IMG/VR virus record: IMGVR_UViG_3300030012_003086
Location: 24,508-88,507 of that record
Length of the DNA stretch: 64,000 nucleotides
DNA from: a virus
Direction: 5' to 3' (one strand)
Part shown: positions 42,486-62,338 of the stretch, piece after piece
Numbering within the stretch: the stretch's first letter is position 1
Layout of the letters: every line of letters begins with the position of its first letter
Position numbers and translations under genes: made by a program
Notes under the pieces: model-generated
Seen by the model: the letters and a program-made list of their open reading frames with translations, nothing else
Databases searched by the model: none
Told to the model about the DNA's origin: nothing

Positions 42486-42776
42486 CTATCTCCCTCTTCT
42501 TCTAATTGATTGAATAATATTTTTGCTTAACATTTTATCCCAAAATTTATCTGCTACGGGTAGTGTTCCATCAGCCTCTATGTCTCCGTCTTTTATTGAA
42601 AGTAAATACTTAACCATTTCTTTTAGGTATTTTTCTCCTAATCCCTGTCTTTCTTCTGCATTATGACCAAAGCCCATAATTCCCCAATATCCAGCATAAA
42701 ACGCATCTCCGGTTGCTTTACCATCTTTTGAATGCCAAGTGACTTCTAATTCTTCTTTGATAATATTAAACCACAT
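42486..42776 (-). CDS. Small hypothetical protein
   Basis: 96 residues from ATG 42776. TTG 42785, overlapping the GTPase stop (TTGA) and close to AAAGG, is an alternative adding three residues. Central Gly/aromatic stretch (FYAGYWGIMGFGHNAEERQG) followed by a helix and basic end IRRRGR. Not recognised. Coupled to the GTPase gene. Confidence 0.55.
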   Translation of the reverse strand: MWFNIIKEELEVTWHSKDGKATGDAFYAGYWGIMGFGHNAEERQGLGEKYLKEMVKYLLSIKDGDIEADGTLPVADKFWDKMLSKNIIQSIRRRGR

Positions 42777-46505: not shown

Positions 46506-47732
46506 TTAAATTCCTCCTACCATCTTATGAATGTCATTCCAGTCCATTTCTGCAATTTCATCCAATGAAGGGAGTTTAATTTGAGACTCTTCTTGAGCCT
46601 TTAGAATAGTCTCTTTCTCAGCAGTTAGAGACTTTCTTAGTTGTGTAAATTCTTCCTTTAGGGAAGCAATTTCTGTCTTTGCATCGTAATTTGCTTTAGC
46701 GATTGCATTTGTTCTTGATGTAGTTTCAGCCTCAAATCTGGCTTCAAACTGCTTTTGAAGATTATCGTAAGCCAATTTTTCTAATTGTTCTTGACGGAAT
46801 GCTTCGTAAGCCTTCTCAATGTTTCCTACTGACAAATCAAGTGTTTCTAATTCATTGTTGTTATATGCTTTAACAACAGGCAAATCAGAAGCCTTTGGAT
46901 TTCCATTCTCAATAACGACTCTATCCGCAGGTTCACCGATTTCAACACCAGCACCATCTAGAGTTGAAAGCAAAGCCTTTGCTTCTCTGTCTCTTTCTTC
47001 AGTGCCCATATCCATCAATTCTTCTTCTTCTTCATCGGCTCTTTCCATGTTGTCCATGTATTCGCCCATGCCCTTTTCTTTTTCTTCAGGCATTTCTTTT
47101 GCATACATGCCTTTTTCATCTTCTTTTTCTTCTTCTTTTCTTAACATATTGACTTCCTCCATTAGAGTGTCCAATTCTGCTAGTGCTTTTTCTAGTTTAC
47201 TCATTTTTTTTGCCTCCTTATCTTGCTTTAAAATATCAAATTTCGCTTCCGGGTTTATTCCTTTTTCACATATTGTTACTTCATGCAATTCTAGTTTGCT
47301 TATTTCATTGTAATCTCCTAACTCTGGGTGATTTTTCTTTACTTTATGTATCGCTTGCCCCCCAATGCTAAATGACCTCAATGAACCTTTTCTTATGCCT
47401 CGATTTATTTCTTTGGCTTTTTCTATATCATCCCTTAATTTAATCACTACAAAAAATCCTACATCATCAACTTCAGTTTTCCATAGTTTTCCGTTCTTAT
47501 CTCGATATGATTTAATTACCTCTCCGACTTGAACATTTGAATGGTTTGTCATTACATTCCTAAATTTGGGATTCTCCATGTATTTTTCGACTGCATCTTC
47601 TAATGCTTTGAGTGTAATTAAATCATTTTGCTTATCAACGATTTCGATGCTTGCATATCCTCCAATCATTAAATCGTCACTTTTGAGTATTCTGAAATCA
47701 TCATTATGATTAGCCATAATAGCAGATGCCAT
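46506..47732 (-). CDS. Prohead protease fused to scaffold (XkdF-like), with C-terminal MDWNDIHKMV peptide
   Basis: 408 residues, GAGGAAGA upstream of ATG 47732. Residues 20-170 are an XkdF-like maturation protease: a His in MTNHSNVQVGEV, then KGSLRSFSIGGQ with the likely catalytic Ser, and ELHEVTICEKGINPEA near the end of the domain. Residues 175-395 are acidic coiled coil typical of scaffolds. The last 18 residues (EIAEMDWNDIHKMVGGI) repeat a peptide found at the end of the small protein at 50,522 and resemble the tag at the start of many small late proteins. Function: capsid assembly and maturation cleavage. Confidence 0.85.
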   Translation of the reverse strand: MASAIMANHNDDFRILKSDDLMIGGYASIEIVDKQNDLITLKALEDAVEKYMENPKFRNVMTNHSNVQVGEVIKSYRDKNGKLWKTEVDDVGFFVVIKLRDDIEKAKEINRGIRKGSLRSFSIGGQAIHKVKKNHPELGDYNEISKLELHEVTICEKGINPEAKFDILKQDKEAKKMSKLEKALAELDTLMEEVNMLRKEEEKEDEKGMYAKEMPEEKEKGMGEYMDNMERADEEEEELMDMGTEERDREAKALLSTLDGAGVEIGEPADRVVIENGNPKASDLPVVKAYNNNELETLDLSVGNIEKAYEAFRQEQLEKLAYDNLQKQFEARFEAETTSRTNAIAKANYDAKTEIASLKEEFTQLRKSLTAEKETILKAQEESQIKLPSLDEIAEMDWNDIHKMVGGI

Positions 47733-47772
47733 TCTTCCTCACCCCTGTTTATTTCCTTTCACTATATTAACT
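47733..47772 (-). promoter_or_regulatory. Spacer upstream of the capsid gene set; possible promoter
   Basis: 40 nt between the ligase and the protease/scaffold gene in an otherwise overlapping operon. On the minus strand it contains TTAATATAG about 30-35 nt before the protease ATG and then AGGGGTGAGGAAG as ribosome site. A TATA-like promoter for capsid genes is possible but weakly supported. Confidence 0.25.
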
Positions 47773-50271
47773 TCACTGTGGAATTTTAATTTTTGCATAC
47801 TTATCTTCGTAAATATTCCAAATACCATCATCAGTTTTACTATCCACAGGTTCCTGTTCATAACCTGTCCATGCTAACCACATCTTTTTACCCTTTACAG
47901 GTAGATATCTGATATGAAGTTTAGTCTCAAACTTGTTTCCATCTAAGAAATATTCATGATATCCCTCTCTTTGAACGCCTAATTCAACAGTTCCACTATC
48001 AATTACCTTTTCTTTTTCTATATTAGTCGCTACTTGTGCAGGATATTTTCCCGCAGCACCAAACAAATCAAACAATTCTTCCTCGTTTTCTAAATCAATA
48101 GTCCAATTAATAGTATCTTCACCTAACTTAATTGATAGAGTAATATTATCATCTTCTCTAGCATATATTTTGAAAGGACCGCTTCTTTTTTCTTTGGGGG
48201 TTTTATACTCTTTCTTAATTTCTTCAGTGTCCTTTTGGACTTTATCGTAACTCATGAAGAGTTTTTTAGTTTGAGGATTGTAATCTATACCATCTCTATT
48301 ATCAGCCCATTCCACTAAACCATCTTTTCCATCTTTTACAATGTCTTTATATTCAGCAATGTTTTCTTTTACTAGATAGTCATGCACTTCTTTTAATGTT
48401 CTAGGACCATTGTCTGTTAAATAACGAATAATTGCATTTGCCAAAATTCCTTGTTTAGTTTTCATTATCTCTTGCACTTGTTCTTTCCAAATATCAATAT
48501 CCAACATAGCATTCTTAGACATTAAATTATGTTCTTCAAAGAAAGTAAAACCGCTTAAGTCAAACTTTAATATTGCTTCACCGTGAATATGGTCCGTTAT
48601 TTTGAATCCTTTTGTTAGTGCAGTTACATCATAATTTAGAGATTTCTTAGTATCTTGTGCTAAGAATTCTAAAGTAACCACTTTGTCGGGCATTTCGACT
48701 TCCGGTATTTCTATTACCTTTGCAGAATATAGAGTAAATCTTTCACCGGCTTGTTTTACTTCATCAACTTTTACTCTAACTATATCTCCTACATTTACAG
48801 AAGTTTTAGTATTAAGAGTCTTACCGACGTTCATGTATTTTTTACCGTCAATTTCTTCTATAAATTTACTTTCCTCATCAGTCGGACCAATATCAACACC
48901 AACAGTATAAGAATATAAATTGCTTTTTGTTTTCTTTTTATCCAAGATAATAACATCTAAATCAACAAACTTTTTCCACTTAATCCATTTAGGGTTCTTT
49001 CTTGTTCCTAGATAATAAGTCGAAGTAGCATCTTTAATTACTACGCCTTCAGCAGTAGGCATATTCATAATTGTCTTAGAATATTCTTCTATATCTTTTA
49101 GACTATCTGCCATTCTAGTATCTCTCTTAGATGGGAATACTAAATACTCAGAAGAATGGGACGAATAATTATTGAATAAGGTAGTAATTCTATTGGACAA
49201 TTCTTCGTCAAGAAGAGTTTGTTCTTCGTGTCGCATAATATCAAAAACATGGCATTTTAATTTAGCATCTTTGTATTTTCCTTTGAATACGTGAGCAATA
49301 GTGTCTGCCCTATGTAAAGAATCTTCACCACTAAATAAAATCAATTCAGCATCTAAAATACAGTCGCCAAAGTGTTTTTTCTTTAATTCATCAACTATAT
49401 CAGAGCATTTATCTGTTATATTCTTTTTATTATAGGAATAGACTTTAACCGACTTATCAAACTTATGAAGTTGCACTCTCATGCCATCATATTTTTCTTG
49501 AACAACCCAATCGCCACTGAAACCTTTCAATTCATTGATATCTTCAATGTCAAATATCCTATACATCGGTTTATTAGGAATAATGAAATCACTAATTGAC
49601 TTTTCTTCTTCTGATTTTTTCATGTCAATATCAACCAATTCTTCCCATTCCTTTTCTTCATGTTGGGAAAAGAAAACTAAATGCAATAGGTCTAAGGCTG
49701 CCTTTACTTTAGATTCCACTTTTTTTGAGTCTTTCCCATCCCCATAATGCTCAATAATATACAGTGCTATATCGTCTTCCTCTAGGTCAAGACCCATAAG
49801 ACCCTCGGTAATTGAGTCCGGTTCCATGTCTTTTATTGATAATGTTTCAGCAGTTAGAGCATTGTTGTGATTTCTTAGCGCATAATGAACAAATTTGACC
49901 ATAGATTCGGGATTTGTCATTAACTCTTCAAGAACATTACCTTTGAATCTTTTAGCAAACGGGTCTTCAACTAATTTAGAATTATATCTTAGAAGTTTTA
50001 TTTTTTCAAATAAGTTTTTTGCTTCAGTTGTTTTAACATCATTAACGCTATTGTTTTCTAAATCATCTTCATCAATAAAATTTTTCATTTCTTTTCCAGC
50101 AGCATCTAATTCATCATAGGATTCTTTAATTAATTTAACTGTTGCTCTCCAACGACTCCCATATTCTTTTGGGTCATGTCGTGCAGATAAATAGGCAACC
50201 CTTGTCTTTTCAAAAAGACGCATTATTTCGACTGATGGTTGTCTATCTTTTTCGATAGAACCTAATTTCAT
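47773..50271 (-). CDS. Second ATP-dependent DNA ligase, large, in the head module
   Basis: 832 residues, far longer than the 513-residue ligase of the replication module. Residues 1-240 are a divergent helical N-terminus. Motif I is QEKYDGMR with Lys at about 260; CILDAELILF is motif III; AEGVVIKDA is motif IV; KWIKWKKF is motif V. An OB domain follows to about 550. The last 170 residues form an extra beta domain (SGPFKIYARED, VIDSGTVELGVQREG, FETKLHIRYLPVKGKKMWLAW) that loosely resembles the phosphoesterase domain of LigD in strand order but lacks its His ligands. Located between portal-side genes and the protease; possible role in packaged-DNA repair or as virion cargo. Confidence 0.88.
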   Translation of the reverse strand: MKLGSIEKDRQPSVEIMRLFEKTRVAYLSARHDPKEYGSRWRATVKLIKESYDELDAAGKEMKNFIDEDDLENNSVNDVKTTEAKNLFEKIKLLRYNSKLVEDPFAKRFKGNVLEELMTNPESMVKFVHYALRNHNNALTAETLSIKDMEPDSITEGLMGLDLEEDDIALYIIEHYGDGKDSKKVESKVKAALDLLHLVFFSQHEEKEWEELVDIDMKKSEEEKSISDFIIPNKPMYRIFDIEDINELKGFSGDWVVQEKYDGMRVQLHKFDKSVKVYSYNKKNITDKCSDIVDELKKKHFGDCILDAELILFSGEDSLHRADTIAHVFKGKYKDAKLKCHVFDIMRHEEQTLLDEELSNRITTLFNNYSSHSSEYLVFPSKRDTRMADSLKDIEEYSKTIMNMPTAEGVVIKDATSTYYLGTRKNPKWIKWKKFVDLDVIILDKKKTKSNLYSYTVGVDIGPTDEESKFIEEIDGKKYMNVGKTLNTKTSVNVGDIVRVKVDEVKQAGERFTLYSAKVIEIPEVEMPDKVVTLEFLAQDTKKSLNYDVTALTKGFKITDHIHGEAILKFDLSGFTFFEEHNLMSKNAMLDIDIWKEQVQEIMKTKQGILANAIIRYLTDNGPRTLKEVHDYLVKENIAEYKDIVKDGKDGLVEWADNRDGIDYNPQTKKLFMSYDKVQKDTEEIKKEYKTPKEKRSGPFKIYAREDDNITLSIKLGEDTINWTIDLENEEELFDLFGAAGKYPAQVATNIEKEKVIDSGTVELGVQREGYHEYFLDGNKFETKLHIRYLPVKGKKMWLAWTGYEQEPVDSKTDDGIWNIYEDKYAKIKIPQ

Positions 50272-50282
50272 TGTATCACTTC

Positions 50283-50522
50283 TTAATACTTAGATTCTTG
50301 ACCTGCTAAACCATATCCATCAGTTTCTCTATTTTTAGGAATTAATTCACTATCTTTAACTTCTTCTGCTTTTGGTCTTTTTACTTTGACTACTTCAGCA
50401 TCATCCTTTTCGGGACTTCTGTTATTATCATTAAGAGACAATTCTAATTCTTTTTTAGCACTTCTAGCCTTTTCAATAGCAAGACTGACAATTCTTTCTT
50501 CTTTTGTTACTCTTTCCGGCAT
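50283..50522 (-). CDS. Small charged helical protein
   Basis: 79 residues. Charged helix (EERIVSLAIEKARSAKKEL) and a disordered Lys/Glu/Pro tail. Overlaps the previous gene by 1 nt. Not recognised. Possibly a minor scaffold or internal protein, given its neighbours. Confidence 0.5.
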   Translation of the reverse strand: MPERVTKEERIVSLAIEKARSAKKELELSLNDNNRSPEKDDAEVVKVKRPKAEEVKDSELIPKNRETDGYGLAGQESKY

Positions 50523-50773
50523 TAATTTCCACCTGCCTTTTCGACCATTTTATGAATCTCGGACCAATCCATAGTTGAAATATCTTTTGGCATTCCTGTT
50601 GGAGAACCAATTGAATTATCCATAGCAGGAGTTGGACTATTAGTTACTACAAAGCCTGCTTTCATGAGTATGCTATCTTTAGCATAAATTGTCTTTTCTA
50701 AATCTTCAACCTTTGAGGCTAGTGCTTTAATTATCTCTAATAATTCTTCATTAATTGTGTTTTCTTCTGTCAT
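50522..50773 (-). CDS. Small coiled-coil protein with C-terminal MDWSEIHKMV peptide
   Basis: 83 residues from ATG 50773, 5 nt after GAAGTGA; an upstream in-frame ATG at 50800 lacks a ribosome site. N-terminal coiled coil (EELLEIIKALASKVEDLEK), Pro/Ser linker, and the terminal peptide DISTMDWSEIHKMVEKAGG. The same peptide ends the protease/scaffold protein, so the two probably bind the same partner, most likely the capsid protein. This could be a small scaffold. Confidence 0.6.
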   Translation of the reverse strand: MTEENTINEELLEIIKALASKVEDLEKTIYAKDSILMKAGFVVTNSPTPAMDNSIGSPTGMPKDISTMDWSEIHKMVEKAGGN

Positions 50774-50777
50774 AATA

Positions 50778-51134
50778 TCACTTCTTTTTTGTCCGGCCAT
50801 AAATTAAATCATCAAGTTGCCTATACAGTAACTCATATTCTTTACGTAACTTCGTAGCAGTAGCAACAATATCAAGGTTCCTATCATCCATTGATTTCAT
50901 TTTCTTACTAAGTTTCTTATCAGATTTAGTTAAATCCAATTCTTTGAGAGTATCAATCAATTCACCTAATTTAGTAAAGTCTTGACCAAAAAATTCAGTG
51001 GGAGAAGCCGCTTGAATAGTCTTTTTAAGTCTCTTTCTAGCCTTTGGGTCTAACGAATCGAGTATGCTTTTAGGCTTAGTTTTTTCTTTTTTTATGATAA
51101 TCTCTTTTCCATCATTATAATAATCCCATGTCAT
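50778..51134 (-). CDS. Helical basic hypothetical protein
   Basis: 118 residues. Starts MTWDYYNDGKEI, which shares M-T-W with the tagged proteins but not the rest of the tag. Contains ARKRLKKTIQAASPTEFFG and a C-terminal helix. Lys-rich throughout. Overlaps the upstream gene by 4 nt. Not recognised. Confidence 0.55.
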   Translation of the reverse strand: MTWDYYNDGKEIIIKKEKTKPKSILDSLDPKARKRLKKTIQAASPTEFFGQDFTKLGELIDTLKELDLTKSDKKLSKKMKSMDDRNLDIVATATKLRKEYELLYRQLDDLIYGRTKKK

Positions 51135-53083
51135 TCAAAACCCTCCTTATATTTTTTACCACCCATTTGCCTTTCGGGGTCAAAGTCTTCCTCAATCCAA
51201 GATGGTATCTCATATTCAAATGGAATTTCAGGAACTACTTCTTTTTCTGAATCTTCTTTCTTTCTGCTTTTAATATCGCTATTTATTTCTGCTCTATCAC
51301 TACTAATATCTTGCAACATTTCTTCTATTTCAGATATAGGGATATTTATATTTTGAACATTTTTGAAATCTATACCTAACTCTGTAAACTTATTTTTTGC
51401 TTGGTCTTCGCTTACTTCCATAAGTATTCGCATGGTTCTATCTATTCTATAACCTACGCTACTTGCTAGATTTTCTCCCTTCTTTCTTTTTTTGGGTTTA
51501 TCTGCTTCTAAGTCTTTTAGACTTTCAGAATCTTCTTTTAGGAATTCTTTCCATTTTTCCTTTGTCTCATCATCTAATTCATCTAGTGCCTTTGTTAAAG
51601 AATTGATTTTAGAAAACAATTTTCTAATAGGTCGTCTAATCTGTCTTATTTTTTTACTCAACTCTTTACTAGGGTCTTTAATTTCCTCAGCAGAGGATAT
51701 TGTTTGTTTTATTAGATTAATTTCTGCAATCAAATTCTTCATAAATTTCATATTAAATTTATCGTAAATTTTTTCGTAATCTTCTTTTACTTCGACCCAT
51801 TGGTTTGCTAAATCCATTCTTAGGTCATCTAGTTTTTCTTCAGGGTTTTCTCTTAGAGTTTTTATTTCTTCTCTTAAATTTCTTATGTATTCCGGCATTT
51901 CATTTGAACCTTCTTTAACAGTAAATACCTTTAGTGAAACTGCTAACTCTCTAGCCTTATCTGTTACTAAATCCTCTGCATATTCTAGAAGATAATCATC
52001 ATCAACATTTTCAAACTCTTCTAAAGTATTCTTCAAAGAAGAATTTGAATTATTTAAGTATTTGATATGATTCTCAATATTTTGTAATGTCTTGTTTAAA
52101 GACGATACTGCCCTTCTAAATCTAACATTATATCCTTTAGCATCTCTTTCTGCAATTTTTGTTTTAAATCCTGAAAAGTCTCTTGCTATTCTTCCGACAT
52201 CGGCAAGGGCTTTTGCTTCACTATTAAACGCTCTTAAATGAAGCATTCCCATAACTTCTATAACAGACATGTCTTTATTCGATGGAGTGTTATCAATTAT
52301 AGAATTGGCAAGAGCAGAGTAAGTATTATTTAAATCAAAAATATTTATTTCAGAAGTAACTTTATTTTTAATGGTCCTCTCGCCTTTTTCTCTTTTATAC
52401 ATTTTTTTAGAATATATCGGGAATTCACCATTAAATGAAAATTGTTTGAATCTATTTACTATAAAATTAGTCTCGGTTCCTTTTTGGAATTCTGGCAGTG
52501 TGGACATGATTCTTAGAACCCTTATTAAAAAATTAGAATCCTTTTTACTAATATCTCTATATGCACTTGCCCCTGTTATAGCAGGAGGCGAAATATTAGT
52601 TTGGATTCTAACGTTTCTAATTAAATCATTTACTTTTTCCCTAGCATTTATTAAAAATTTAATTTCATTCTGTGCCCTTCTATGTTCTGTTTCTTCTTTA
52701 CTCTTTTCTCTCTGTTCAGCAGAAAGCATAGTGCTTTGTCTAAATGTATCGGATTCTTTGAAACTTTCTTGTTCAGTCTGTTCTTGTTCAGTCTGCGCTT
52801 GTAATGTTTCCTTTCTTTGTTCTCTTTCTCTTGCCTTACCCGAAGTATATCTAGTATCTCCTGCAAATTCACCATAGTCTTCATCTTCTTTTTGCTTAAG
52901 TATTGCTTTTTCTATTAGTTTTCTATAAACAACAATGTTAGTAGAATCTATGTTTTTAATTAGAGAATTTTTAATCATAGCAGCACTCGCTTGGTTTTCA
53001 ACAAGTTCTTTTGTTTCACTATCTAAATCATATTTCAATAGAACACTGTGTAGTGTCTTATCTTTAGATAGTTGAAAGAACAT
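51131..53083 (-). CDS. Large coiled-coil protein of unknown function
   Basis: 650 residues, mostly charged helix. Notable are a Gln/Glu repeat region (QTEQEQTEQES) at about 100, a folded part around 170-290, and several coiled coils later. No enzymatic motif. Directly downstream of portal and upstream of the scaffold-like genes, so a minor head or internal core protein is likely; such cores (for example T4 internal proteins) are often coiled coil. Confidence 0.6.
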   Translation of the reverse strand: MFFQLSKDKTLHSVLLKYDLDSETKELVENQASAAMIKNSLIKNIDSTNIVVYRKLIEKAILKQKEDEDYGEFAGDTRYTSGKAREREQRKETLQAQTEQEQTEQESFKESDTFRQSTMLSAEQREKSKEETEHRRAQNEIKFLINAREKVNDLIRNVRIQTNISPPAITGASAYRDISKKDSNFLIRVLRIMSTLPEFQKGTETNFIVNRFKQFSFNGEFPIYSKKMYKREKGERTIKNKVTSEINIFDLNNTYSALANSIIDNTPSNKDMSVIEVMGMLHLRAFNSEAKALADVGRIARDFSGFKTKIAERDAKGYNVRFRRAVSSLNKTLQNIENHIKYLNNSNSSLKNTLEEFENVDDDYLLEYAEDLVTDKARELAVSLKVFTVKEGSNEMPEYIRNLREEIKTLRENPEEKLDDLRMDLANQWVEVKEDYEKIYDKFNMKFMKNLIAEINLIKQTISSAEEIKDPSKELSKKIRQIRRPIRKLFSKINSLTKALDELDDETKEKWKEFLKEDSESLKDLEADKPKKRKKGENLASSVGYRIDRTMRILMEVSEDQAKNKFTELGIDFKNVQNINIPISEIEEMLQDISSDRAEINSDIKSRKKEDSEKEVVPEIPFEYEIPSWIEEDFDPERQMGGKKYKEGFE

Positions 53084-53092
53084 CTAATCACC

Positions 53093-53320
53093 TCAGAATG
53101 GAATATTTTCTTTTCTTCCTTTTCTCTTAGGGGGAAGTGTAACTACATCAGGAACATCAGCCGAATGTAGTTTAGCCTTATGTGTAGTATCGGGAGGAAC
53201 CCCACCAATACTGAAATCTCTTGTTTTGCTTAGTTTAGTATCGGCATTAGCGTTAATTGCTTTTACTTGTGCCAATTCTTTCTTTAGTCTTATTTCTTTT
53301 TGTTTCAAATCTTCTGTCAT
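53093..53320 (-). CDS. Small hypothetical protein
   Basis: 75 residues. Charged helix KQKEIRLKKELAQVKAINA, then a Pro/Gly-rich, probably disordered tail ending PPKRKGRKENIPF. Between portal and the large coiled-coil protein. Not recognised. Confidence 0.5.
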   Translation of the reverse strand: MTEDLKQKEIRLKKELAQVKAINANADTKLSKTRDFSIGGVPPDTTHKAKLHSADVPDVVTLPPKRKGRKENIPF

Positions 53321-53321
53321 A

Positions 53322-54977
53322 TCAACCCACTCTCCTTTCTGTTCTTCTATCCACGTTTTGATTACCTGCTTCTCTAGGTAGTCCGGCTAATCTCTTATCC
53401 GGCCCCGTTGCCATACTTGGCTTATTTCTATTGGCTTTAACCTTTGCCGGTTTAGCAGGCATTCCTGCTTCTTCCGGTGAAGGTTTAGTTCCCGCTTCCA
53501 TCATTTGACCTAATTGACTTTGGTCTATATTAGTGCCCGCATAAGGGTCTAATTCTATTTCTTCTTGATTTTCCTCTTCTCCCTCATTTTCTTTAGGTTC
53601 GGGTTTAGTAAAGGTAAAGTTACCATCTTCATCCATATCAACCTCAAATCCTAAATTCTTAGTTGAAGCAGCAATATTAACTTCTATCTCTCTCTTTCTC
53701 AATACTGCAATTTCATCCTCTTCTTCGGATGGCGGTAGTTTTAGTTTCCAATCACTAATACCAAATTGCTTTACTAGGAACGGGAATACATATTCATTGT
53801 AAACATTCTGTGCCATTTGAACGGCTCTATTAGTAACTAAGATTTGCATACCTTCATTATTTAATCCACCACTTGTAGTATTATCAGCCATGAAAACTTT
53901 ACTTACGCCATAGAACGCTGAGATTCTATCTCGCAAATCATCCTTAACAGAAACATAATCCATTTCCTTTAGACTATCCATGAATTTAATCCATTCAACC
54001 GCACCCTTTCCTCCTTCGGCTTCAATACCCATAACAGGAATAAAGTGAGGGTCTTGTTCCATTTTTTCTTTTACTGAACGCCAAAAAGAACGCATAGAAT
54101 CCATGTTTCTAGTTTGCACTGCTAGAAGACCTTTTGGCATTCGGCTTTTAGTATAAGATGAATTGACGTAATTTTCCATAGCAATAAGAGTCATAATGTT
54201 ATTGTAAAGTGTAATTACAGGAGACATTCCGTATAGTCTAGAAGGACTATACTTACTAAAATGAAGGACTTCTCCCTTTAGGAAATATTGGTCTTCACCA
54301 TGCACTCTATTTACATAATGAACAGGAAATAAATTGGAGCCACATGTTTCACATAATTCATGTGGTTCTGTTGATAGCATATTACGATGATTAATACAAG
54401 TAAATCCTTTGGTTCCCCTTTCACCTAACTCATCAGTATAGATAGCCATAGTAACAGGGTCGCCCCTATATACTTCTTTGATTCGGTGCATTCTAATTTT
54501 ACCATTACCATCTATGAAGTATTCCTTTACAAGAACAATGTAAGCATCATCCATTATATTTAGGTCATCTTCTAATTCTCTTAGAACATCAATGAATAAT
54601 TGTTCTGCTTTATTTACATACCCTTCAATAAATTTCTCAGCATATTCTAATTGCTTAACATCGGGAATTTTAAGATTAGTGCTTTTACATCTAGAACACT
54701 CTTGAACAGGCCTTTTGTGTTCTTTACCACAATCCTTACACAGGGCTTCGTATGCCTTTTCCCAATAATATCCTCTCCTGAACACTTCTTGCTTTAGTTG
54801 AGTAATACATGTTCTAGCAATAACTGATTGATTTACTAAATGATAAATCAGAGGAGCGGTCATTATGTTTTGGTTGTGCCTTTCTTGAATACCGATATTG
54901 TATATCTTCCTATCAGCAGGTTTGGGGGTCTGTCTTCTAAACAAATTTGTAATGGAGAATCTTCTCTTTTCTGCCAC
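53322..54977 (-). CDS. Portal protein with two zinc-finger insertions
   Basis: 551 residues from GTG 54977 preceded by GGAGGGG. The portal core is indicated by LIYHLVNQSVIARTCITQL, FLKGEVLHFSKYSPSRLYG, SPVITLYNNIMTLIAMENY and SRMPKGLLAVQ, a clip/stem/wing order typical of HK97-lineage portals. Two metal sites interrupt it: C80, C83, C94, C97 and C194, H197, C209, C212. Zinc insertions of this sort are unusual in portals. The C-terminal 100 residues are acidic, then Pro/Lys-rich and disordered. The portal forms the dodecameric DNA entry ring to which TerL docks. Confidence 0.88.
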   Translation of the reverse strand: MAEKRRFSITNLFRRQTPKPADRKIYNIGIQERHNQNIMTAPLIYHLVNQSVIARTCITQLKQEVFRRGYYWEKAYEALCKDCGKEHKRPVQECSRCKSTNLKIPDVKQLEYAEKFIEGYVNKAEQLFIDVLRELEDDLNIMDDAYIVLVKEYFIDGNGKIRMHRIKEVYRGDPVTMAIYTDELGERGTKGFTCINHRNMLSTEPHELCETCGSNLFPVHYVNRVHGEDQYFLKGEVLHFSKYSPSRLYGMSPVITLYNNIMTLIAMENYVNSSYTKSRMPKGLLAVQTRNMDSMRSFWRSVKEKMEQDPHFIPVMGIEAEGGKGAVEWIKFMDSLKEMDYVSVKDDLRDRISAFYGVSKVFMADNTTSGGLNNEGMQILVTNRAVQMAQNVYNEYVFPFLVKQFGISDWKLKLPPSEEEDEIAVLRKREIEVNIAASTKNLGFEVDMDEDGNFTFTKPEPKENEGEEENQEEIELDPYAGTNIDQSQLGQMMEAGTKPSPEEAGMPAKPAKVKANRNKPSMATGPDKRLAGLPREAGNQNVDRRTERRVG

Positions 54978-55009
54978 TATAACCCCTCCTATTTATCTGT
55001 CAGAGATGA

Positions 55010-55129
55010 TTAGTTATCAACCTTACTAACTTTCATACTCTTTGGTTTACCTGCTTTTATCCAGCACGATTCACAAAACCCAAAAGGATAATTATTTTCT
55101 GAACAATAACATTTACCACAATATATCAT
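55010..55129 (-). CDS. Very small zinc-ribbon protein
   Basis: 39 residues from ATG 55129, which overlaps the stop of the previous gene (ATGA). Cys positions C-G-K-C-Y-C and C-E-S-C make a compact zinc ribbon, followed by a basic tail GKPKSMKVSK. Fills most of the spacer before the portal gene. Function unknown. Confidence 0.55.
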   Translation of the reverse strand: MIYCGKCYCSENNYPFGFCESCWIKAGKPKSMKVSKVDN

Positions 55130-55506
55130 AGTCTCCGCCTCTGATTCTTTGGCCGTGTTAAATGCTTTCCGGGGTCAGAAGCAACGCTACCGAAATTTGT
55201 TCGGGGGCTAACTGCTCCTGTGTCAGACATATCTCCGGTAGTTTGATTTACAATATTTGTTGTTCTTGGTGTAGGATTATCAAATCTAGCACCTGCAAGA
55301 ACTCCTAACATTTTTTTCATCTCTTCAACTGTTCTTTGTTGTTTAGGCTTGAATCTTAAATATCTTTTAAATTTCTTTTTAGCATCATCAGAATAATTGG
55401 ATAAACTCATCTGAAAATCATAAAATTCTTTTGCTTCCTGATTAGGAAAAAAACCAAAAATACCTTTTTCTAAATCAGATTTAAGTATTAATTTCCATTC
55501 TTCCAT
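55126..55506 (-). CDS. Small late protein with variant W-x-x-ILK N-terminus
   Basis: 126 residues. Begins MEEWKLILKSDLEKGIF, a variant of the tag found in the neighbouring genes. A helical, basic middle (AKKKFKRYLRFKPKQQRTV) and a disordered Arg-rich tail follow. Likely an internal virion protein if the tag has the proposed meaning. Confidence 0.55.
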   Translation of the reverse strand: MEEWKLILKSDLEKGIFGFFPNQEAKEFYDFQMSLSNYSDDAKKKFKRYLRFKPKQQRTVEEMKKMLGVLAGARFDNPTPRTTNIVNQTTGDMSDTGAVSPRTNFGSVASDPGKHLTRPKNQRRRL

Positions 55507-55510
55507 ACAA

Positions 55511-55828
55511 TCATCTCCTTGATTTATTTCCGTGACATTTCCATTTTTTACGGCTTAAATTATTCGGGCTATTTGGGTCACTTCTCCAATTTCCTTTAAT
55601 TTTATTTGACCTCGCACAATAAGCATCTCCCTTAGAAGTTCCGGGCCTTATTCTATCTCCACCATCTTTGGCTTTACCTGCTTGACCATATGAAACCTTT
55701 CTGCCCGAAGCAGTTCTTTTAACAAACCTTTTTCCTTTTCGAGGTTTGCCTAATTTCTTTTTCCTTCTTTTAGAACCGGCCTTTCGTCTAGCCTTACTTT
55801 TCTTTTGAAGAATATCTTGCCAAGTCAT
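55511..55828 (-). CDS. Tagged basic virion-associated protein with Cys motif
   Basis: 105 residues. N-terminal tag MTWQDILQKKSKARR, then a very basic stretch (KRRKKKLGKPRKGKRF), and a C-terminal conserved block with DAYCARSNKIKGNWRSD and NLSRKKWKCHG. Blocks like this last one recur in small proteins of marine phages and large DNA viruses as I recall them; their function is unknown. The basic charge suggests DNA binding inside the capsid. Stop overlaps nothing; the gene before it ends 1 nt away (TAATG). Confidence 0.65.
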   Translation of the reverse strand: MTWQDILQKKSKARRKAGSKRRKKKLGKPRKGKRFVKRTASGRKVSYGQAGKAKDGGDRIRPGTSKGDAYCARSNKIKGNWRSDPNSPNNLSRKKWKCHGNKSRR

Positions 55829-56268
55829 TACTTTTCTCCTCTCATTTGGTTTTGTTTAGAGGTTTTATCATCAACAATTGGCCCGCCCTTCGCCCAAGTA
55901 TAGCAAGTTCTCGCTGAATGACATTTAAAGTGATGCATCCAACAATAGCCCAGAGTTTCCCACTTTTTATTATTTTTTATAGCGGATTTTATTTCCTCTT
56001 GACTCATAATTTCTAAAGGCATACATTCATCCATTCTTGGAGATATATCAAATGCAATACAATTACTACAATTAGATTCCTTTGCTACATCAGCAGTAGT
56101 GTTCCACCTTTTAGCATATTCCTCCCAATATTCTTCATCTTCTAGATTAAGTGGCCCATATCTGATATTAGGATTTTTAACTGCGGCATCTCTATTCTTA
56201 GTATTGAGCATCAAATCTTGTGTTGCTCTAGGACAAGCCATTTCTTTTAGGATAATTTGCCAAGTCAT
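55828..56268 (-). CDS. Tagged Cys-rich protein
   Basis: 146 residues. Starts MTWQIILKEMACPRATQ (tag with Ile in place of Asp). Later cysteines: SNCSNCIAFDISPRMDEC and GYCWMHHFKCHSARTCYTW, which probably bind metal. Similar Cys-rich blocks occur in small proteins of marine viruses. Function unknown. Coupled to its neighbours by overlap. Confidence 0.62.
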   Translation of the reverse strand: MTWQIILKEMACPRATQDLMLNTKNRDAAVKNPNIRYGPLNLEDEEYWEEYAKRWNTTADVAKESNCSNCIAFDISPRMDECMPLEIMSQEEIKSAIKNNKKWETLGYCWMHHFKCHSARTCYTWAKGGPIVDDKTSKQNQMRGEK

Positions 56269-56657
56269 GCAGTGAAACCTCTCCCTTTACTTGGTTTTTT
56301 ATTAGATATAATATCTCCATCTGAGTGAATGTATGCTTTTCCATCCTCAACTAAAGCCATTACTTCGCCCTTTATTTGAGCAGGGCTAAGTTTTTTCTTA
56401 AATTTTTTATTTAAGTGACTATAACCTAAAGCACCACCTTCTTTTTCTATTTCTCTTAAAATCAATCCTCTGATTGCTCCGGCTTTAGCCTTCTTGACTT
56501 TCTTTCCATCTTTATCAAGAACACCTCTTCCAATTAGAACATCCTTTCTAGTAACTTTACCGTCACCGGATAAATCCTCTAAATCTTTTTCAAAAATCTG
56601 CTTTTCACTATCGGTTTTTTCATTACAGTGTCTTTTTATTATATCTTTCCAATTCAT
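56265..56657 (-). CDS. Tagged small protein with EF-hand-like and winged-helix-like parts
   Basis: 130 residues. Tag MNWKDIIKRHCNEK, then LEDLSGDGKVTRKDVLIG, where D-x-D-G-K-V-T-x-x-D resembles a dockerin/EF-hand calcium loop. Residues 65-115 (RGLILREIEKEGGALGYSHL, KKLSPAQIKGEVMALVEDG, AYIHSDGDII) resemble a small helical domain with a wing. Function unknown. Confidence 0.6.
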   Translation of the reverse strand: MNWKDIIKRHCNEKTDSEKQIFEKDLEDLSGDGKVTRKDVLIGRGVLDKDGKKVKKAKAGAIRGLILREIEKEGGALGYSHLNKKFKKKLSPAQIKGEVMALVEDGKAYIHSDGDIISNKKPSKGRGFTA

Positions 56658-57085
56658 GTTTTAGCCATCCTTTGTGTTTTTCTTTTACTTGATTCCTTTC
56701 TTGCCGAAGCAACTTTATGTGCAGCATTTAATCTCTTCTTTGTTTTGGGGTCTTTTGCTCTCCTAGCCGCTACTCTTGCTCTTTGTTCAACTAAATTAAT
56801 TATTTGCGATTGTCTTTTATGTGGCTTAGAACGGAATGCCGCACTACTGAATGTATCTCTCACATCTTTAGCAGTTTTAAAACTAACGGGAACAGTATCT
56901 TTTGGATTTTCATCTGTGTATAATCTTCTTCTAGACCCTTTTGGCTTTTTACCTGTTCCTTTTTTGGGGTCGGTTTTTTTTATTTCTTTACTTCGACAAT
57001 GTGCTTTACAAGTAAATCCTTTAGTTTTATTTGGCCCACTACAAACGCAATAAGACATATCTTTCTTTAGAATATCTTGCCACAT
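56654..57085 (-). CDS. Tagged basic protein with Cys cluster
   Basis: 143 residues from ATG 57085, overlapping the previous stop (TAATG) and preceded by GGGGGAAG; an in-frame ATG at 57103 would add six residues. Starts MWQDILKKDMSYCVCSG, with C-V-C and F-T-C-K-A-H-C as a metal site, then a long very basic helix (LVEQRARVAARRAKDPKTKK). Suits binding of packaged DNA. Function otherwise unknown. Confidence 0.6.
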   Translation of the reverse strand: MWQDILKKDMSYCVCSGPNKTKGFTCKAHCRSKEIKKTDPKKGTGKKPKGSRRRLYTDENPKDTVPVSFKTAKDVRDTFSSAAFRSKPHKRQSQIINLVEQRARVAARRAKDPKTKKRLNAAHKVASARKESSKRKTQRMAKT

Positions 57086-57882
57086 TATTTTGTCTTCCCC
57101 CATTTCTTACCTTTACCTTTAGTTTTACAGGCTGATGGTGTAGGGCGACAAGCAGGATATCTTTTTCTTTTTTCACCGGAAGAACGACCACATGATTTGT
57201 AGCCACCACTTCCATCGGGCGCATTACAATCAACCCAACCGCCTTTACTCCCTTTAGCACCTTTACGACCAAACCAATCTTTAAGACTTGATTCAGAAGA
57301 AGGCTTTGAAGTCAATCTTCTTCTTTGTTTCTTTTTATAACGTTTAGCACTTCTTCTTCTTCGAGCCTTGCTCTTTTTATGAAGAATATCTTCCCATGCA
57401 GATTTTTTAACAGAAGCCATAGTTATATCAGTAACTGCAATTAATACACCAAACAGTAATATTTTCAAAAACATTCTATTATTCTCTATAACGTTAATTA
57501 TCCCCTCATCAATAAATTCTTCAAACAAAAAAGATTTTAGTTTTGTAATCATATTATTTATAGTGATATCAGATATGCTTTTTCTAATTATATGAATTAG
57601 TTCAGGATTAGAAAAACCTTCATCCTGCGTGTTTAAATCCACTTCTTTTACTTTATCTAAACACAACAATATGATTTCACTGAGAATTACGTTAACAGGA
57701 GTATCTAAATTATTATCATCAATATAATTATTATATTCTTTCAGAAATTTATCTGAATATGTATCAACAAGATTCTTCATATCGGGATGTATATAATTTA
57801 TTTTATCATATAAATTTGGCATAGCACTATCAAAAACATTTGATAAATCAATAGATTCCTTCAATATGTTATGCCAACTCAT
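57085..57882 (-). CDS. Tagged protein that carries a second internal tag (probable gene fusion)
   Basis: 265 residues from ATG 57882 after GAAGTGA; GTG 57891 is less likely. First tag MSWHNILKESIDLSN, a helical 130-residue domain, a hydrophobic stretch (MFLKILLFGVLIAVTDITM), then about residue 155 MASVKKSAWEDILHKKSKARR, a second tag with the same following residues as the protein at 55,511. A basic linker and a Cys/Gly block (KDWFGRKGAKGSKGGWVDC, YPACRPTPSAC) follow. That block also occurs in small proteins of other marine viruses as I remember. Looks like two neighbouring tagged genes joined. Confidence 0.62.
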   Translation of the reverse strand: MSWHNILKESIDLSNVFDSAMPNLYDKINYIHPDMKNLVDTYSDKFLKEYNNYIDDNNLDTPVNVILSEIILLCLDKVKEVDLNTQDEGFSNPELIHIIRKSISDITINNMITKLKSFLFEEFIDEGIINVIENNRMFLKILLFGVLIAVTDITMASVKKSAWEDILHKKSKARRRRSAKRYKKKQRRRLTSKPSSESSLKDWFGRKGAKGSKGGWVDCNAPDGSGGYKSCGRSSGEKRKRYPACRPTPSACKTKGKGKKWGKTK

Positions 57883-57887
57883 ATCAA

Positions 57888-58088
57888 TCACTTCTTAGAT
57901 TTATTGCCCCAATTAGCAGCACCTACTTTACGGCATTGGACTAAAGCACCACTAGCGTAAGCGGAAGGCCATTTTTTATATCTACTTCTTACCTTATAAT
58001 AACAAGCATCTTGTTTTTTACCAGACCTTTGGGTTCTCCTTCTTCGGAGTTTTTTCTTTTTTCTTTTAAGAATATCTTGCCACTTCAA
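57888..58088 (-). CDS. Tagged small basic protein
   Basis: 66 residues from TTG 58088, which overlaps the previous stop (TTGA) and follows GGGGG. Tag MKWQDILKRKKKKLRRRR, then a compact conserved-looking block (CYYKVRSRYKKWPSAYASGA, then VQCRKVGAANWGNKS). The latter pattern is familiar from many small phage proteins of unknown function. Highly basic overall, suggesting nucleic acid binding. Confidence 0.62.
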   Translation of the reverse strand: MKWQDILKRKKKKLRRRRTQRSGKKQDACYYKVRSRYKKWPSAYASGALVQCRKVGAANWGNKSKK

Positions 58089-59446
58089 GCCAATATCCCC
58101 CCTATTCCTTCTAACTCATCCATTACTGAAATTTTACAATTATCTTTGTATTTTTGAATGTCATCTAAATTTATATTTTCTTTACCAAAATCAAATCCAA
58201 CATGGTCTTTATGATTTTCCCACTTCATCAATTTGAAAATTTCGTCACACCTTTGCTTATACCAATCAGCCTTCTTATATGATTTTTTCATTCGTATCAA
58301 CTCTATAAGTAATTCGGCATTTCCTTTCTTTAATCTAAAATGAGGAAGACACTTAGTTAGTAAACCCATAACGTCTTTTTGTGAATAAAAATTTAAACGA
58401 TTTACGGGTCTAGTATCTTGTGGAGATTTTTGGTCTAAATGTAATCTTCCAAAACCAATTGATTTATGCATCTCTTCCATGAATGCCCTGCCTCTTTCTC
58501 CGGTAGCGACCAAACCAACTCTAGGATTCATATTACGGTCAAGAGTAATATAACCATCAGAGTCAATAAAAGCAGCAGTATAAGCCCATACATTTTTCTT
58601 TAACATAGTAGGGGCCTTGTAATAATTGCCCTTAACGGATAATATATCTAGTGACTTTGCTGATTTAGATATAGAGTTAGCATTGGTTGTTCTAAATAAA
58701 TCAGCAGGCATTCTATCATGTATTCCCTTCGCACTAATACCGGGGTTTTCACACACCATCTTTACAATAAAGTCATTTTGTCTGTCCTTTTTCGACTTAA
58801 CTAAAGACTGATTAGAAACCTTAGAAATAGCATTTCTAAATTCTTTTTTACTTTGTCTCATAGTCTTGTATAGTGCAGAATAATCATCACAGTAAACCAT
58901 TCCTGTTTGTTCTAGTTCAGCCTCCCAATACTTACACAAAGCATCAACGACTTCTCTTCTAGATTCCACATCTTTCATTTTGTAAAGTTTCTGTAAGTCT
59001 TTTTCATTAAATCTCATTTTCTTTAAAGGCACTTCGTAAGGAGATAACCAAGAAATAGAATCTATACATTTCTGCAAATGGTCTGAGTAAGCATCAATCA
59101 TTGTATCAATTACTCTTGTCATCTTTTCTCTATTTTCACCCTTAAGGACTCTTCTAGCCTTCCTCATCTTAGTGACTAAATCAGGAATAGTCTGTTCTTG
59201 TATGATATATTCATCGGGGAATGAAACAATATACTTTCTTGCTTGAGAAGCATTAATCCCTAAATCATTTGATAGTTTAGTTATCTGCTCATTCTCCGAC
59301 ATAACATATGTGTCAAAAGAAGCAGTGACTAAATCTTTATTTTGAGCATCTTCAATCTCATCCTCAACCTTTTCTTCTCTCTCAGTAATTCTAGACAACT
59401 CTTCATATTTGCTAGAAATTTCTTTTAATCTTTCAGCCTTCGACAT
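58085..59446 (-). CDS. Helix-turn-helix protein with C-terminal LAGLIDADG domain
   Basis: 453 residues directly downstream of TerL. Residues 50-80 hold a helix-turn-helix-like segment (ITKLSNDLGINASQARKYI). Residues about 222-275 look like a winged helix. From about 286 a single LAGLIDADG endonuclease domain begins: AYTAAFIDSDGYITLD with the acidic residue at D297, later GFGRLHLDQK and MGLLTKCLPHFRLKKGNAE as in single-motif homing enzymes that dimerise. No disrupted host gene, intron or intein is seen. Might be a homing nuclease that targets viruses lacking it, or a domesticated DNA-binding protein; TerS-like recognition of packaging sites is another possibility. Confidence 0.75.
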   Translation of the reverse strand: MSKAERLKEISSKYEELSRITEREEKVEDEIEDAQNKDLVTASFDTYVMSENEQITKLSNDLGINASQARKYIVSFPDEYIIQEQTIPDLVTKMRKARRVLKGENREKMTRVIDTMIDAYSDHLQKCIDSISWLSPYEVPLKKMRFNEKDLQKLYKMKDVESRREVVDALCKYWEAELEQTGMVYCDDYSALYKTMRQSKKEFRNAISKVSNQSLVKSKKDRQNDFIVKMVCENPGISAKGIHDRMPADLFRTTNANSISKSAKSLDILSVKGNYYKAPTMLKKNVWAYTAAFIDSDGYITLDRNMNPRVGLVATGERGRAFMEEMHKSIGFGRLHLDQKSPQDTRPVNRLNFYSQKDVMGLLTKCLPHFRLKKGNAELLIELIRMKKSYKKADWYKQRCDEIFKLMKWENHKDHVGFDFGKENINLDDIQKYKDNCKISVMDELEGIGGILA

Positions 59447-59454
59447 AATACCAC

Positions 59455-60867
59455 CTAGAAATTAAGACCCAATGAATTCCTTTTAGGACCACTATCAAAT
59501 AAACCTATATCATCTAACAGAATGAAGTTTTCAACTAATTGATATGTAGCAGCGTTAGCCAATGCTAAACTCATAACCATATCGTCATGTGCGCCTATTC
59601 CCTCAAACTTACCACGTTCAGTAATAGCAAACATTGACAATTCCTCAACTAATGTTGAAGTAACTCTTCGGCTTTCTTCATTACCATAAGGAAAATTCAT
59701 TTTTTGATTCTCTAAAGTCATCTGTAAATTAAGAATAATTTCCTGCTTCTTTCTTCTAGTGGTGTTGAAATCATGCACGTTTAAATCAGCCACCTGTCTC
59801 AACTCCTGTGTAAAAGATTTAGCGAAAGTATTAGTCTCAAAAAGAATAGCCTCCGGTCTGAAAATTTGACCTATCAATTTTACTTTGTTGATATTTTCTC
59901 TAAACTCAACATTCTTTGCCCGGTCAATGTAAACTATGGATTTGTTTTCATTCTCATCGACTTCTAAAACAGTAATTACATTGTAGTCTCCATCAGTGGA
60001 TATAGCAGGGTCCACTCCTACAAAATACTTGTAGCCTTCTCTTCTCATAGGTTTCAAAACCAAATCTTTATTCTTAGCACTATCCAAATATTCGGGATTA
60101 AATAAAGAAGTGCCCGTTGATATAGGAACACACATATATTCTCTTGTAAACATGAGAGAACCTACTTCAGCCTTTCTTGCCATTAGTGCATCATAATTCC
60201 ATCTTTCGGGCCATAGCGGTTCGTTTAAAGAATTTAAACAAGGATATGTTCTAACTGTATAAGCCTCATTTTCTGCTAGTTGCTGATAAATATCTGTGTA
60301 ACTAAAAGGAGTTCCGATTACTCTAAGAGAAGCAGTGTGGTGAAGTGTTGGTATCATGTCACCATAAAACCAATCTGTAACTTTCTGAATACCTGTCATA
60401 CTAAACTCCTTTAAAGGGTCATCAATAATAATCTCTTGAGGGTGTAACCCACGAATCTGAGAACCTACTGACCTTTCTAGAATTTGATTTCCATTAGTCA
60501 AAGTAATATTACCAATAGCCCAACCTCTAGCAGGTTTAAACTTCTTAAGCATAGGATGAGTAAACATCTTATCAATGTCTCTCATGTGAACCAAAGTCTG
60601 TTTTTGGTTAGAAGAAATGTAAAGCATTTGATATGGGGGTTCTTCAAAGATTAATTTCCATACAACCCAACTGTGCATAAATACAGATTTTCCGTGGTCA
60701 CGACTACAAATAATTACAGTTCTTTGAGTGCTATTCATCAACTCATGCCACTCTTGAATATAAGAGGGAAAATGATAACCTAATACATTTTGAAAAAAAT
60801 ATGGAAAAGAGTTACGAGATAACTCCATATCCATCTGATGTTCAAAATTAAATGCTTCTAATTCCAT
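59455..60867 (-). CDS. terL: Terminase large subunit
   Basis: 470 residues. ATPase: Walker-A-like CSRDHGKS around 54-61, adenine-motif region QMLYISSNQKQT, Walker B EIIIDDPLKE with D149/D150, coupling motif VIGTPFSYTD. Nuclease of RNase H fold: GYKYFVGVDPAIS with D286, EAILFETNTFAKSF, and GAHDDMVMSLALA near the end. It pumps DNA into the prohead through the portal and cuts the concatemer. The normal TerL length is matched. No TerS is identified; the neighbours at 58,085 and 62,343 are candidates. Confidence 0.95.
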   Translation of the reverse strand: MELEAFNFEHQMDMELSRNSFPYFFQNVLGYHFPSYIQEWHELMNSTQRTVIICSRDHGKSVFMHSWVVWKLIFEEPPYQMLYISSNQKQTLVHMRDIDKMFTHPMLKKFKPARGWAIGNITLTNGNQILERSVGSQIRGLHPQEIIIDDPLKEFSMTGIQKVTDWFYGDMIPTLHHTASLRVIGTPFSYTDIYQQLAENEAYTVRTYPCLNSLNEPLWPERWNYDALMARKAEVGSLMFTREYMCVPISTGTSLFNPEYLDSAKNKDLVLKPMRREGYKYFVGVDPAISTDGDYNVITVLEVDENENKSIVYIDRAKNVEFRENINKVKLIGQIFRPEAILFETNTFAKSFTQELRQVADLNVHDFNTTRRKKQEIILNLQMTLENQKMNFPYGNEESRRVTSTLVEELSMFAITERGKFEGIGAHDDMVMSLALANAATYQLVENFILLDDIGLFDSGPKRNSLGLNF

Positions 60868-62066
60868 TACATATCCTCCGGTGAATAAAATACGGGAAGT
60901 TTGCTATTTAATCTCAACCTATCATACATTTTCTGATGAAACCTACCCTTATCCATTTCACCTATTTTTAAACTTCTAGTCCTCATTTTACGGTGATATT
61001 TTCTTTTTTCATCATTAGTCATGTTTTCATATTCTTCCCTTGTGTTCGTTTTACCTTTTATGCTTTCCCCACCATATTTAGGGGATGCAAAGGTAGGAAA
61101 TTTGTAATTTCTTTTTTTATCAAGCCTTCCTCTCATTCTTATATGAAATTTTTTCTCTTCGCCCTCAGTTAGTTTAATCCTACCTGTATGATACTTGTGC
61201 TTTTCACTATTAGTTAAAGTTTCATAAACTTCTTGTGAAAGTTCTTGATATAGCAAAGGATTACCATGAGCGGTTTGTCGCCCTTTTATTTTAAATCTAT
61301 TATTTTCTAAATCTAAAGAATAAAAATCTTCTTTCTTTGAGTTTGTAATTATTCTTTGATATTGCCTTGTATGAAATCTAGCCAATTCTTGTAATTCTAC
61401 CATTTCCTGATATAATGGAGATTTTTCATCAGTAACATTAACTCTTGCTTGTAGGTTTTTTAGTCTTTTATTGTAGGCCTCATATTGACTCGAATGCCAT
61501 CTTTTTCTATCATCAGGACTCGCTCTTTCATATTGTTCAGCACTACGAATGTCCACTAAATTTTTAATAATGTTCCACCATCCTTTTGCCAAAGGCAATC
61601 CTTTAACTGCCCATTTAGCCCCTCTAGGGTGGTCATCATAATATTCTTTGAATGCCTTAATAGTATTATCATTAGCATATTTTCCTAACTCTTTATCTGT
61701 TGGAGTTACCGACCAACCTCTCTTTTCAAAAGACTTAGCCCATTCTTCATTAGGCATAACAGTTGAAGAAATACCTGTTATGTAAGGACCGGAAGTATTT
61801 CTCTCAAGATGTCTATCTAACTGCTGATAATGATTGTTGCCTCTTTCAGATTCAATGACAAATGCACCACCTCTAGTAGTGAATTCTCCTTTCTTACCAT
61901 AACCAATCGCAGCAATAGGCAGGCCGTCTTGTAATTTAACAAAGTAATCAGTTATAGGATAGAATGGGTCTAAAGGAGAATTCTTACTACGGGCAGCAGG
62001 AAATTCACTGTCATTATTTGATTCCCACAAAGAAAACAATTCTTCTTTAGACATATCCTCTATCAA
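60867..62066 (-). CDS. GNAT-like N-terminal domain plus repeated EKxKYH motifs
   Basis: 399 residues from TTG 62066, 8 nt after GAGGG; TTG 62072 (TTGA overlap) or ATG 62054 are alternatives. Residues 1-130 follow the GNAT acetyltransferase pattern: YFVKLQDGLPIAAIGYGKKG, FVIESERGNNHYQQL (acetyl-CoA-binding-like R-G-x-x-x), and a final EEWAKSFEKRGWSVT. The rest is basic and contains repeats of the form Y-x-x-[LM]-T-x-x-E-K-x-K-Y-H (around 272 and 340). A related repeat occurs in the protein at 39,116. Catalysis by the GNAT part is not certain. Confidence 0.6.
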   Translation of the reverse strand: MIEDMSKEELFSLWESNNDSEFPAARSKNSPLDPFYPITDYFVKLQDGLPIAAIGYGKKGEFTTRGGAFVIESERGNNHYQQLDRHLERNTSGPYITGISSTVMPNEEWAKSFEKRGWSVTPTDKELGKYANDNTIKAFKEYYDDHPRGAKWAVKGLPLAKGWWNIIKNLVDIRSAEQYERASPDDRKRWHSSQYEAYNKRLKNLQARVNVTDEKSPLYQEMVELQELARFHTRQYQRIITNSKKEDFYSLDLENNRFKIKGRQTAHGNPLLYQELSQEVYETLTNSEKHKYHTGRIKLTEGEEKKFHIRMRGRLDKKRNYKFPTFASPKYGGESIKGKTNTREEYENMTNDEKRKYHRKMRTRSLKIGEMDKGRFHQKMYDRLRLNSKLPVFYSPEDM

Positions 62067-62068
62067 AA

Positions 62069-62338
62069 TCAACCCTCTTTATTCTCATAATCAGTAATTA
62101 ATTTTCTTACTTTCATAGCGACTTTTTTAATTTCATCAGCAAGGTCCAAATACTGTTGACTTCTTCTTTTATCAATATAAGCAAACCTAGCCAACTCAGG
62201 AACAAGTCCATTTACTCCCTTGTGAAATTTAGTTTTGTTCATAGTTTGTCGCAACAATTTAGAAACTTCTTCTCTAGGATATTGGATAGGGTTAGCCAAA
62301 TCTAATCTCTCTGCTTTCAATACTTCTTGCCAATTCAT
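62069..62338 (-). CDS. Tagged small helical protein
   Basis: 89 residues starting MNWQEVLKAERLDLANP, a clear copy of the tag, located on the other side of TerL from the main tagged cluster. The remainder is helical (YLDLADEIKKVAMKVRKLI). Function unknown; virion cargo or packaging accessory if the tag hypothesis holds. Confidence 0.62.
   Translation of the reverse strand: MNWQEVLKAERLDLANPIQYPREEVSKLLRQTMNKTKFHKGVNGLVPELARFAYIDKRRSQQYLDLADEIKKVAMKVRKLITDYENKEG

Follow-up and report, generated by a model that had tools for sequence, protein, structure and literature searches.

We wanted to know why many otherwise unrelated late proteins of one virus begin with nearly the same short peptide. 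The stretch of DNA analysed here (the window) comprises 64,000 nucleotides, bases 24508-88507 of the 96.5-kb virus record IMGVR_UViG_3300030012_003086 in IMG/VR. An earlier note on this DNA, made from its letters, had listed W-x-D-I-L-K-like peptides in several late proteins and had proposed that they carry small cargo proteins into the prohead. The plus-strand arm of the genome holds replication-type genes, among them those of a cpn60/TCP-1 chaperonin and a clamp-loader-like AAA protein, and the minus-strand arm holds the terminase, the portal, a protease/scaffold fusion, the major capsid protein and tail genes. Magroviruses (order Magrovirales) have been described as marine viruses with genomes of 90-110 kb, divergent replication and morphogenesis arms, many replication genes, HK97-type head genes and Poseidoniales archaea as hosts (PMC12999244); these hosts are uncultured. 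By its size, strand switch, replication set and HK97-type head genes, the window's genome fits these marine archaeal tailed viruses, an assignment made at the level of the order only.

All the peptides listed before were found in the window, including the variant, the internal copy and two related C-termini, DWNDIHKMV and DWSEIHKMV. The consensus of the N-terminal peptide, here called the tag, is M-x-W-x-[DNE]-[IV]-[LI]-K (8 residues). The tags of the window are given below with the lengths of their proteins in amino acids (aa); the last two were not in the earlier list.

55126..55506, minus strand: 126-aa late protein with the N-terminal tag variant MEEWKLILK (tag at 55506-55480)
55511..55828, minus strand: 105-aa basic protein without a Pfam match, N-terminal tag MTWQDILQ
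55828..56268, minus strand: 146-aa Cys-rich protein, N-terminal tag MTWQIILK
56265..56657, minus strand: 130-aa protein, N-terminal tag MNWKDIIK, aligned with 7 tagged homologues
56654..57085, minus strand: 143-aa basic Cys-rich protein, tag MWQDILKK
57085..57882, minus strand: 265-aa protein, N-terminal tag MSWHNILK; an upstream GTG start is possible
57376..57399, minus strand: second, internal tag AWEDILHK of the 265-aa protein, preceding a basic domain
57888..58088, minus strand: 66-aa very basic protein, tag (M)KWQDILK, TTG start
62069..62338, minus strand: 89-aa protein, N-terminal tag MNWQEVLK
42486..42776, minus strand: 96-aa protein, tag MWFNIIK
61560..61583, minus strand: internal tag-like GWWNIIKN in a 401-aa protein (60867-62072)

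Our sample consisted of the window's genome and twelve near-complete relatives, 13 genomes in all, with open reading frames (ORFs) called identically on both strands. We counted the motif W.[DEN][IVLM][LIVM][KR] at most 5 residues from the start codon. It was present in 149 of 917 late ORFs, while shuffled proteins would give 0.19 in total, so the repeats are real and far above chance. None of the 868 early ORFs was tagged, equal occurrence in early genes having been named in the earlier note as a sign against a packaging role. With a looser motif there were 202 late matches and 1 early match, the latter not at a true N-terminus. Each genome thus has approximately 11 tags by the strict motif and approximately 15 by the looser one; about ten further tags of the window's genome lie beyond the window.

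The position of the tagged genes was measured from the capsid gene. The landmarks of the window are:

45149..46504, minus strand: major capsid protein (SU10_MCP / PHROG major head protein), the proposed receptor of the tag
53322..54977, minus strand: portal protein
59455..60867, minus strand: terminase large subunit (TerL)

Upstream of the capsid gene, 142 of the 149 tags lay at a distance of 5 to 35 kb and one at no more than 5 kb; the remaining six were no more than 5 kb downstream of it. No tag was found in the 203 late genes situated more than 5 kb downstream, which are mostly tail genes. The tag is therefore a mark of late, non-tail proteins, as had been supposed; the expected clustering between the TerL and capsid genes was not borne out, as most tags are upstream of TerL. 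A match within TerL itself, EWHELM, was rejected as a tag, being a conserved segment of that protein. Scanning the whole of IMG/VR for DNA encoding M-x-W-x-D-I-L-K-K returned 74 stretches. Some sixty of these are similar to magrovirus proteins and nearly always come with several tags; the others are isolated single matches. Halovirus HVTV-1 and methanogen virus vir335, checked as relatives, had no tag among the termini listed, and no W-x-D-I-L-K-type tag was found in halovirus loci.

When the 149 tags were aligned on the tryptophan (W 100%), conservation was high along the whole peptide (D/N/E 99%, I/V 94%, L/I/V 99%, K 97%; the residue at W+3 is I in 82% and V in 12%). Relative entropy then dropped from 2.9 bits at the lysine to 0.46 at the next residue and to about 0.1-0.3 beyond. 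After removal of the tags the proteins fell into 83 clusters, 55 of them singletons, with no similarity between clusters, which agrees with the earlier statement that the proteins differ behind the tag. Since conservation ends with the last residue of the tag and the bodies are unrelated, the tag behaves as a module. The motif is also found between domains and at C-termini (e.g. KSWQDILRW, ending 374-aa proteins). Some tagged proteins are true paralogues, for example a 14-member cluster spanning 3 genomes, as would be expected if the tag were the first helix of one common folded domain. The 83 clusters, the internal and C-terminal copies, and homologous bodies that bear another tag or none (described below) refute that reading, to which we give practically no credence.

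Compared with the remaining late genes, those with a tag showed a slightly better ribosome-binding region and stronger conservation of the bases upstream. This could suggest that the repeat is a feature of the nucleic acid, either a translation leader or a recombination cassette spreading the 5' ends of genes. The DNA of the tags is variable, however, with 128 distinct 18-mers among 149 tags and all six Leu codons in use, so conservation acts at the level of protein. The third codon positions are less informative than the first two, and a leader or cassette would not account for copies at C-termini and within proteins. We consider this explanation highly improbable, although recombination may have helped the tag to spread.

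Several proteins of the window illustrate the modularity. The N-terminus of the 146-aa protein (MxWxIILK...CPxAT) has counterparts in five other genomes. In relatives, the body of the 143-aa protein has its tag placed elsewhere in front or is fused to another domain; in the window an alternative start at an upstream ATG (57103) would add 6 residues. The 265-aa protein appears, from its two tags, to be a fusion of two tagged proteins. Behind its tag, the body of the 66-aa protein has matches in PHROG families of unknown function. In probable relatives of the 401-aa protein, which resemble it in the N-terminal domain, a motif of this kind is internal or C-terminal. Arrays of paralogues were also observed: the window's genome has a row of six tagged paralogues in tandem (MWWNIIKNIKQSSRQL...; L082:496-4064), and there is a comparable array with MxWKDILKNVITQxRVKE in another genome (G014 at 56915-60859).

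The tag is predicted to form a strongly amphipathic short helix (helical moment 0.64 for tags vs 0.37 for bodies). Structure models of low confidence present it as a separate helix, as in the 130-aa protein, and the model of the cargo was moderate (pLDDT 62.6). The earlier description of the cargo as small, basic and Cys-rich applies to some of these proteins; the range also includes proteins of 700-800 aa, and the recognised cargo comprises a GNAT acetyltransferase, PAP2-family proteins, a pentapeptide-repeat protein and DUF6321. A DUF6321-type domain was also seen at the end of larger proteins in the T4-like cyanophages S-CRM01 and P-TIM68, encoded beside TerL (L455:133-1683, L456:457-1740). 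Weak PADLOC matches among tagged proteins (Csx20, 4e-6, and Csm2, one member each) could not be assigned to proteins in two further scans and are not relied on.

Related peptides close two other proteins of the head region:

46506..47732, minus strand: prohead protease (Peptidase_S78) fused to a coiled-coil scaffold, C-terminal peptide DWNDIHKMVGGI
46521..46544, minus strand: the scaffold C-terminal peptide DWNDIHKM, modelled with low confidence as a terminal helix
50522..50800, minus strand: 92-aa probable coiled-coil protein (coil by reading), C-terminal DWSEIHKMV

Nearly all of 76 distinct scaffold C-termini ended in W-x-[DE]-[IV]-H-K-M or a close variant, and most of 93 distinct sequences of the coiled-coil protein kept a W-x-[DE]-[IV] C-terminus. 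In alignments of the two, W, I, H, K and M were invariant. The core common to the cargo tag and both C-termini in the window's clade (clade A) is W-x-[DE]-I. The motif W.[DE][IV].K occurred once in 154,974 residues of early proteins, and this rarity means that its C-terminal place in two head-assembly genes is not due to chance. A search for scaffolds with the clade A tag profile ranked other, previously missed cargo first; the scaffold was not at the top because it has H where the tag has L. The structure model of the scaffold was poor (mean pLDDT 43.5). That the cargo tag mimics the scaffold tail is well supported by the sequences of the window's clade, and is supported in that clade only.

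A sister clade (clade B), reached by a search with the HVTV-1 capsid protein, has a capsid protein approximately 37% identical to that of the window. The scaffold tail of most members reads W-[SD]-[DE]-V-H-x-L-A; that of the others has the divergent form GWRA[LT]EEL. No W-x-D-I-L-K tags were found at clade B N-termini, even in six near-complete genomes. An unbiased comparison of these N-termini gave a different peptide, tag B, [PA]-[MFIL]-[DEN]-x-A-W-x-[IL]-[LV]-K, which is situated at N-termini, at C-termini and in repeats inside long proteins, again on unrelated late proteins. Up to three copies were seen in one 946-aa protein (clade B genomes G021-G025, G028; L420-L449). Clade B had 48 copies of tag B and clade A had one. 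The first tag (tag A) was counted 177 times in clade A and 5 times in clade B, compared with 1 to 12 in shuffled clade A proteins. The two tags are thus nearly mutually exclusive between the clades.

Two cargo domains are common to both clades, and in each the alignment begins directly behind the tag, which is of the local type. The first is WQEILK-KKKKPFKGYNKK in clade A vs FEISMAILK-AKSKSKPFHGYNKN in clade B, and the second is WMDILK-KKKKHPALARAGVSGF vs MNLSWRLLK-KDTRLERAGVEGY. The same two bodies are found untagged in bacterial marine phages; in Pelagibacter phage Eistla one untagged homologue is encoded between the scaffold and capsid genes. Because the same bodies occur with tag A, with tag B or with none, the tag is an exchangeable module and a shared first helix is excluded. 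This pattern of sequences indicates that the label is replaced when a cargo changes lineage. In HVTV-1 (L145) we also observed a repeated segment, VYVDSPDEAPEG..GPSG..YY, in the large head-region proteins 113, 115 and 116, which is possibly an analogous shared module.

The closest known system is the capsid-targeting sequence (CTS) of phage T4. Ten residues of it are enough for packaging; targeting depends mostly on residues 4 and 7, and processing on residues 8 and 10 (PMC9026906). Diverse injected protein bodies stand behind the conserved CTS (PMC3012670), and through it the internal proteins join the core (PMC5694885). Like the T4 CTS of IPI, IPII, IPIII and Alt, the magrovirus tag is a short conserved N-terminal peptide on otherwise unrelated late proteins with highly variable bodies, and it has the same aromatic-x-acidic-hydrophobic spacing (Y-Q-E-F or F-K-E-F in the T4 starts MKTYQEFIAEA or MKTFKEF, W-Q-D-I here), which supports the T4-like design suggested in the earlier note. 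T4 residues 4 and 7, the aromatic and the hydrophobic residue three positions on, have the spacing of W and I in the tag. The CTS also resembles the scaffold's own terminus, gp22 starting with MLKEQLIAEA. In contrast to T4, the tag belongs to an archaeal virus, numbers approximately 11-15 per genome instead of a handful, is also C-terminal and internal, has a lineage-specific alternative and shows no cleavage motif. We claim no sequence homology between the two, and packaging in magroviruses is proposed here from sequence. Head-protein propeptides of the giant phages SPN3US and phiKZ are likewise N-terminal segments thought to direct entry into the prohead, but they are mostly longer than 100 residues and are cut by the prohead protease at a known motif (PMC5694885). 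The likeness to encapsulins is one of principle only, as these are cellular compartments and the peptide is usually C-terminal on one or few enzymes. Encapsulin cargo-loading peptides are short terminal peptides that bring cargo into an HK97-fold shell.

From the T4-like spacing and the likeness to the scaffold tail we infer that tagged proteins dock at the scaffold-tail site and so gain entry to the prohead. By analogy with the T4 CTS, it is quite probable that the tag directs proteins into the prohead. Several results weigh against this. The cargo tag of clade B does not match the clade B scaffold tail, which keeps W-x-[DE]-V-H, so mimicry of the scaffold tail, supported in the window's clade, is doubtful as a general rule. 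The tag profile did not single out the clade B scaffold either; it picked NPEAxFRILK, located where the protease domain ends. We take this to be a general motif of this protease family and did not use it as evidence. Most of the cargo had no match to a known family, hence no independent support for a role in the virion. No prohead-protease cleavage motif was seen at or just behind the tag, where positions +6 to +21 hold 0.1-0.5 bits, as judged by conservation and not by known protease specificity. Trimming by the XkdF-like protease, as formerly suggested, is thus unsupported. The basic residue (K or R) is kept in C-terminal tags such as KSWQDILRW, which speaks against it being a mere cleavage point.

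The difference between tag and scaffold tail in clade B, together with the amphipathic helix, the usual form of membrane-binding peptides, would also suit a tag that brings late proteins to a different viral or cellular location, for instance a membrane or a virus factory, the scaffold likeness then reflecting a shared destination. We find this improbable: early proteins and the tail module lack the tag, its core is common to two head-assembly proteins, and the Pelagibacter phage homologue lies untagged between scaffold and capsid genes. A variant compatible with prohead targeting is that tags bundle with the C-terminal helices of the scaffold, so that the scaffold core, instead of the shell, would hold the cargo. 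T4 offers a precedent in the association of internal proteins with the core through the CTS (PMC5694885) and in the CTS-like start of gp22, but simple bundling of like with like misfits clade B, and we consider the variant possible though rather unlikely.

If the tag does target the prohead, the docking site of the scaffold tail during prohead assembly would be the inside of the capsid shell or the core. Tagged proteins would co-assemble, as the same kind of helix would dock on the same partner, and would end inside the head with the DNA, to be injected at infection. As the tag is independent of the cargo, the injected set could be swapped and enlarged quickly, each virus lineage keeping its own label. 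On balance we lean slightly towards the full proposal, that in viruses of Poseidoniales an open-ended, fast-changing set of injected proteins is loaded by means of address peptides which are exchangeable and specific to a lineage, one of them imitating the docking helix of the scaffold; that cargo moving between lineages is re-labelled with the local address; and that the tag allows the whole injected set to be read from sequence.

A ligase and a ligase-like protein were seen in the window apart from the tagged proteins. A second ATP-dependent DNA ligase (832 aa, untagged) is encoded at 47773-50271, between the portal and protease genes, and the early arm also has a ligase-like protein (4061-5602, by reading only).

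We found no description of such tags in magroviruses in the literature searched, which did not cover all primary papers on these viruses. The principle of a packaging tag is already known from T4; what appears to be new is that two lineages have codes of their own, that so many proteins are tagged and that the tag is swapped. If the proposal is true, the tag would reveal from sequence which magrovirus proteins of no known function accompany the DNA into the cell. The hosts of these viruses are one of the most abundant groups of uncultured marine archaea. The proposal would, if true, extend the principle of the T4 CTS, on a larger scale, to archaeal tailed viruses. One cargo with two tags or none would be a natural experiment on the co-evolution of tag and shell, and the tags would provide small address peptides for loading HK97-type shells.

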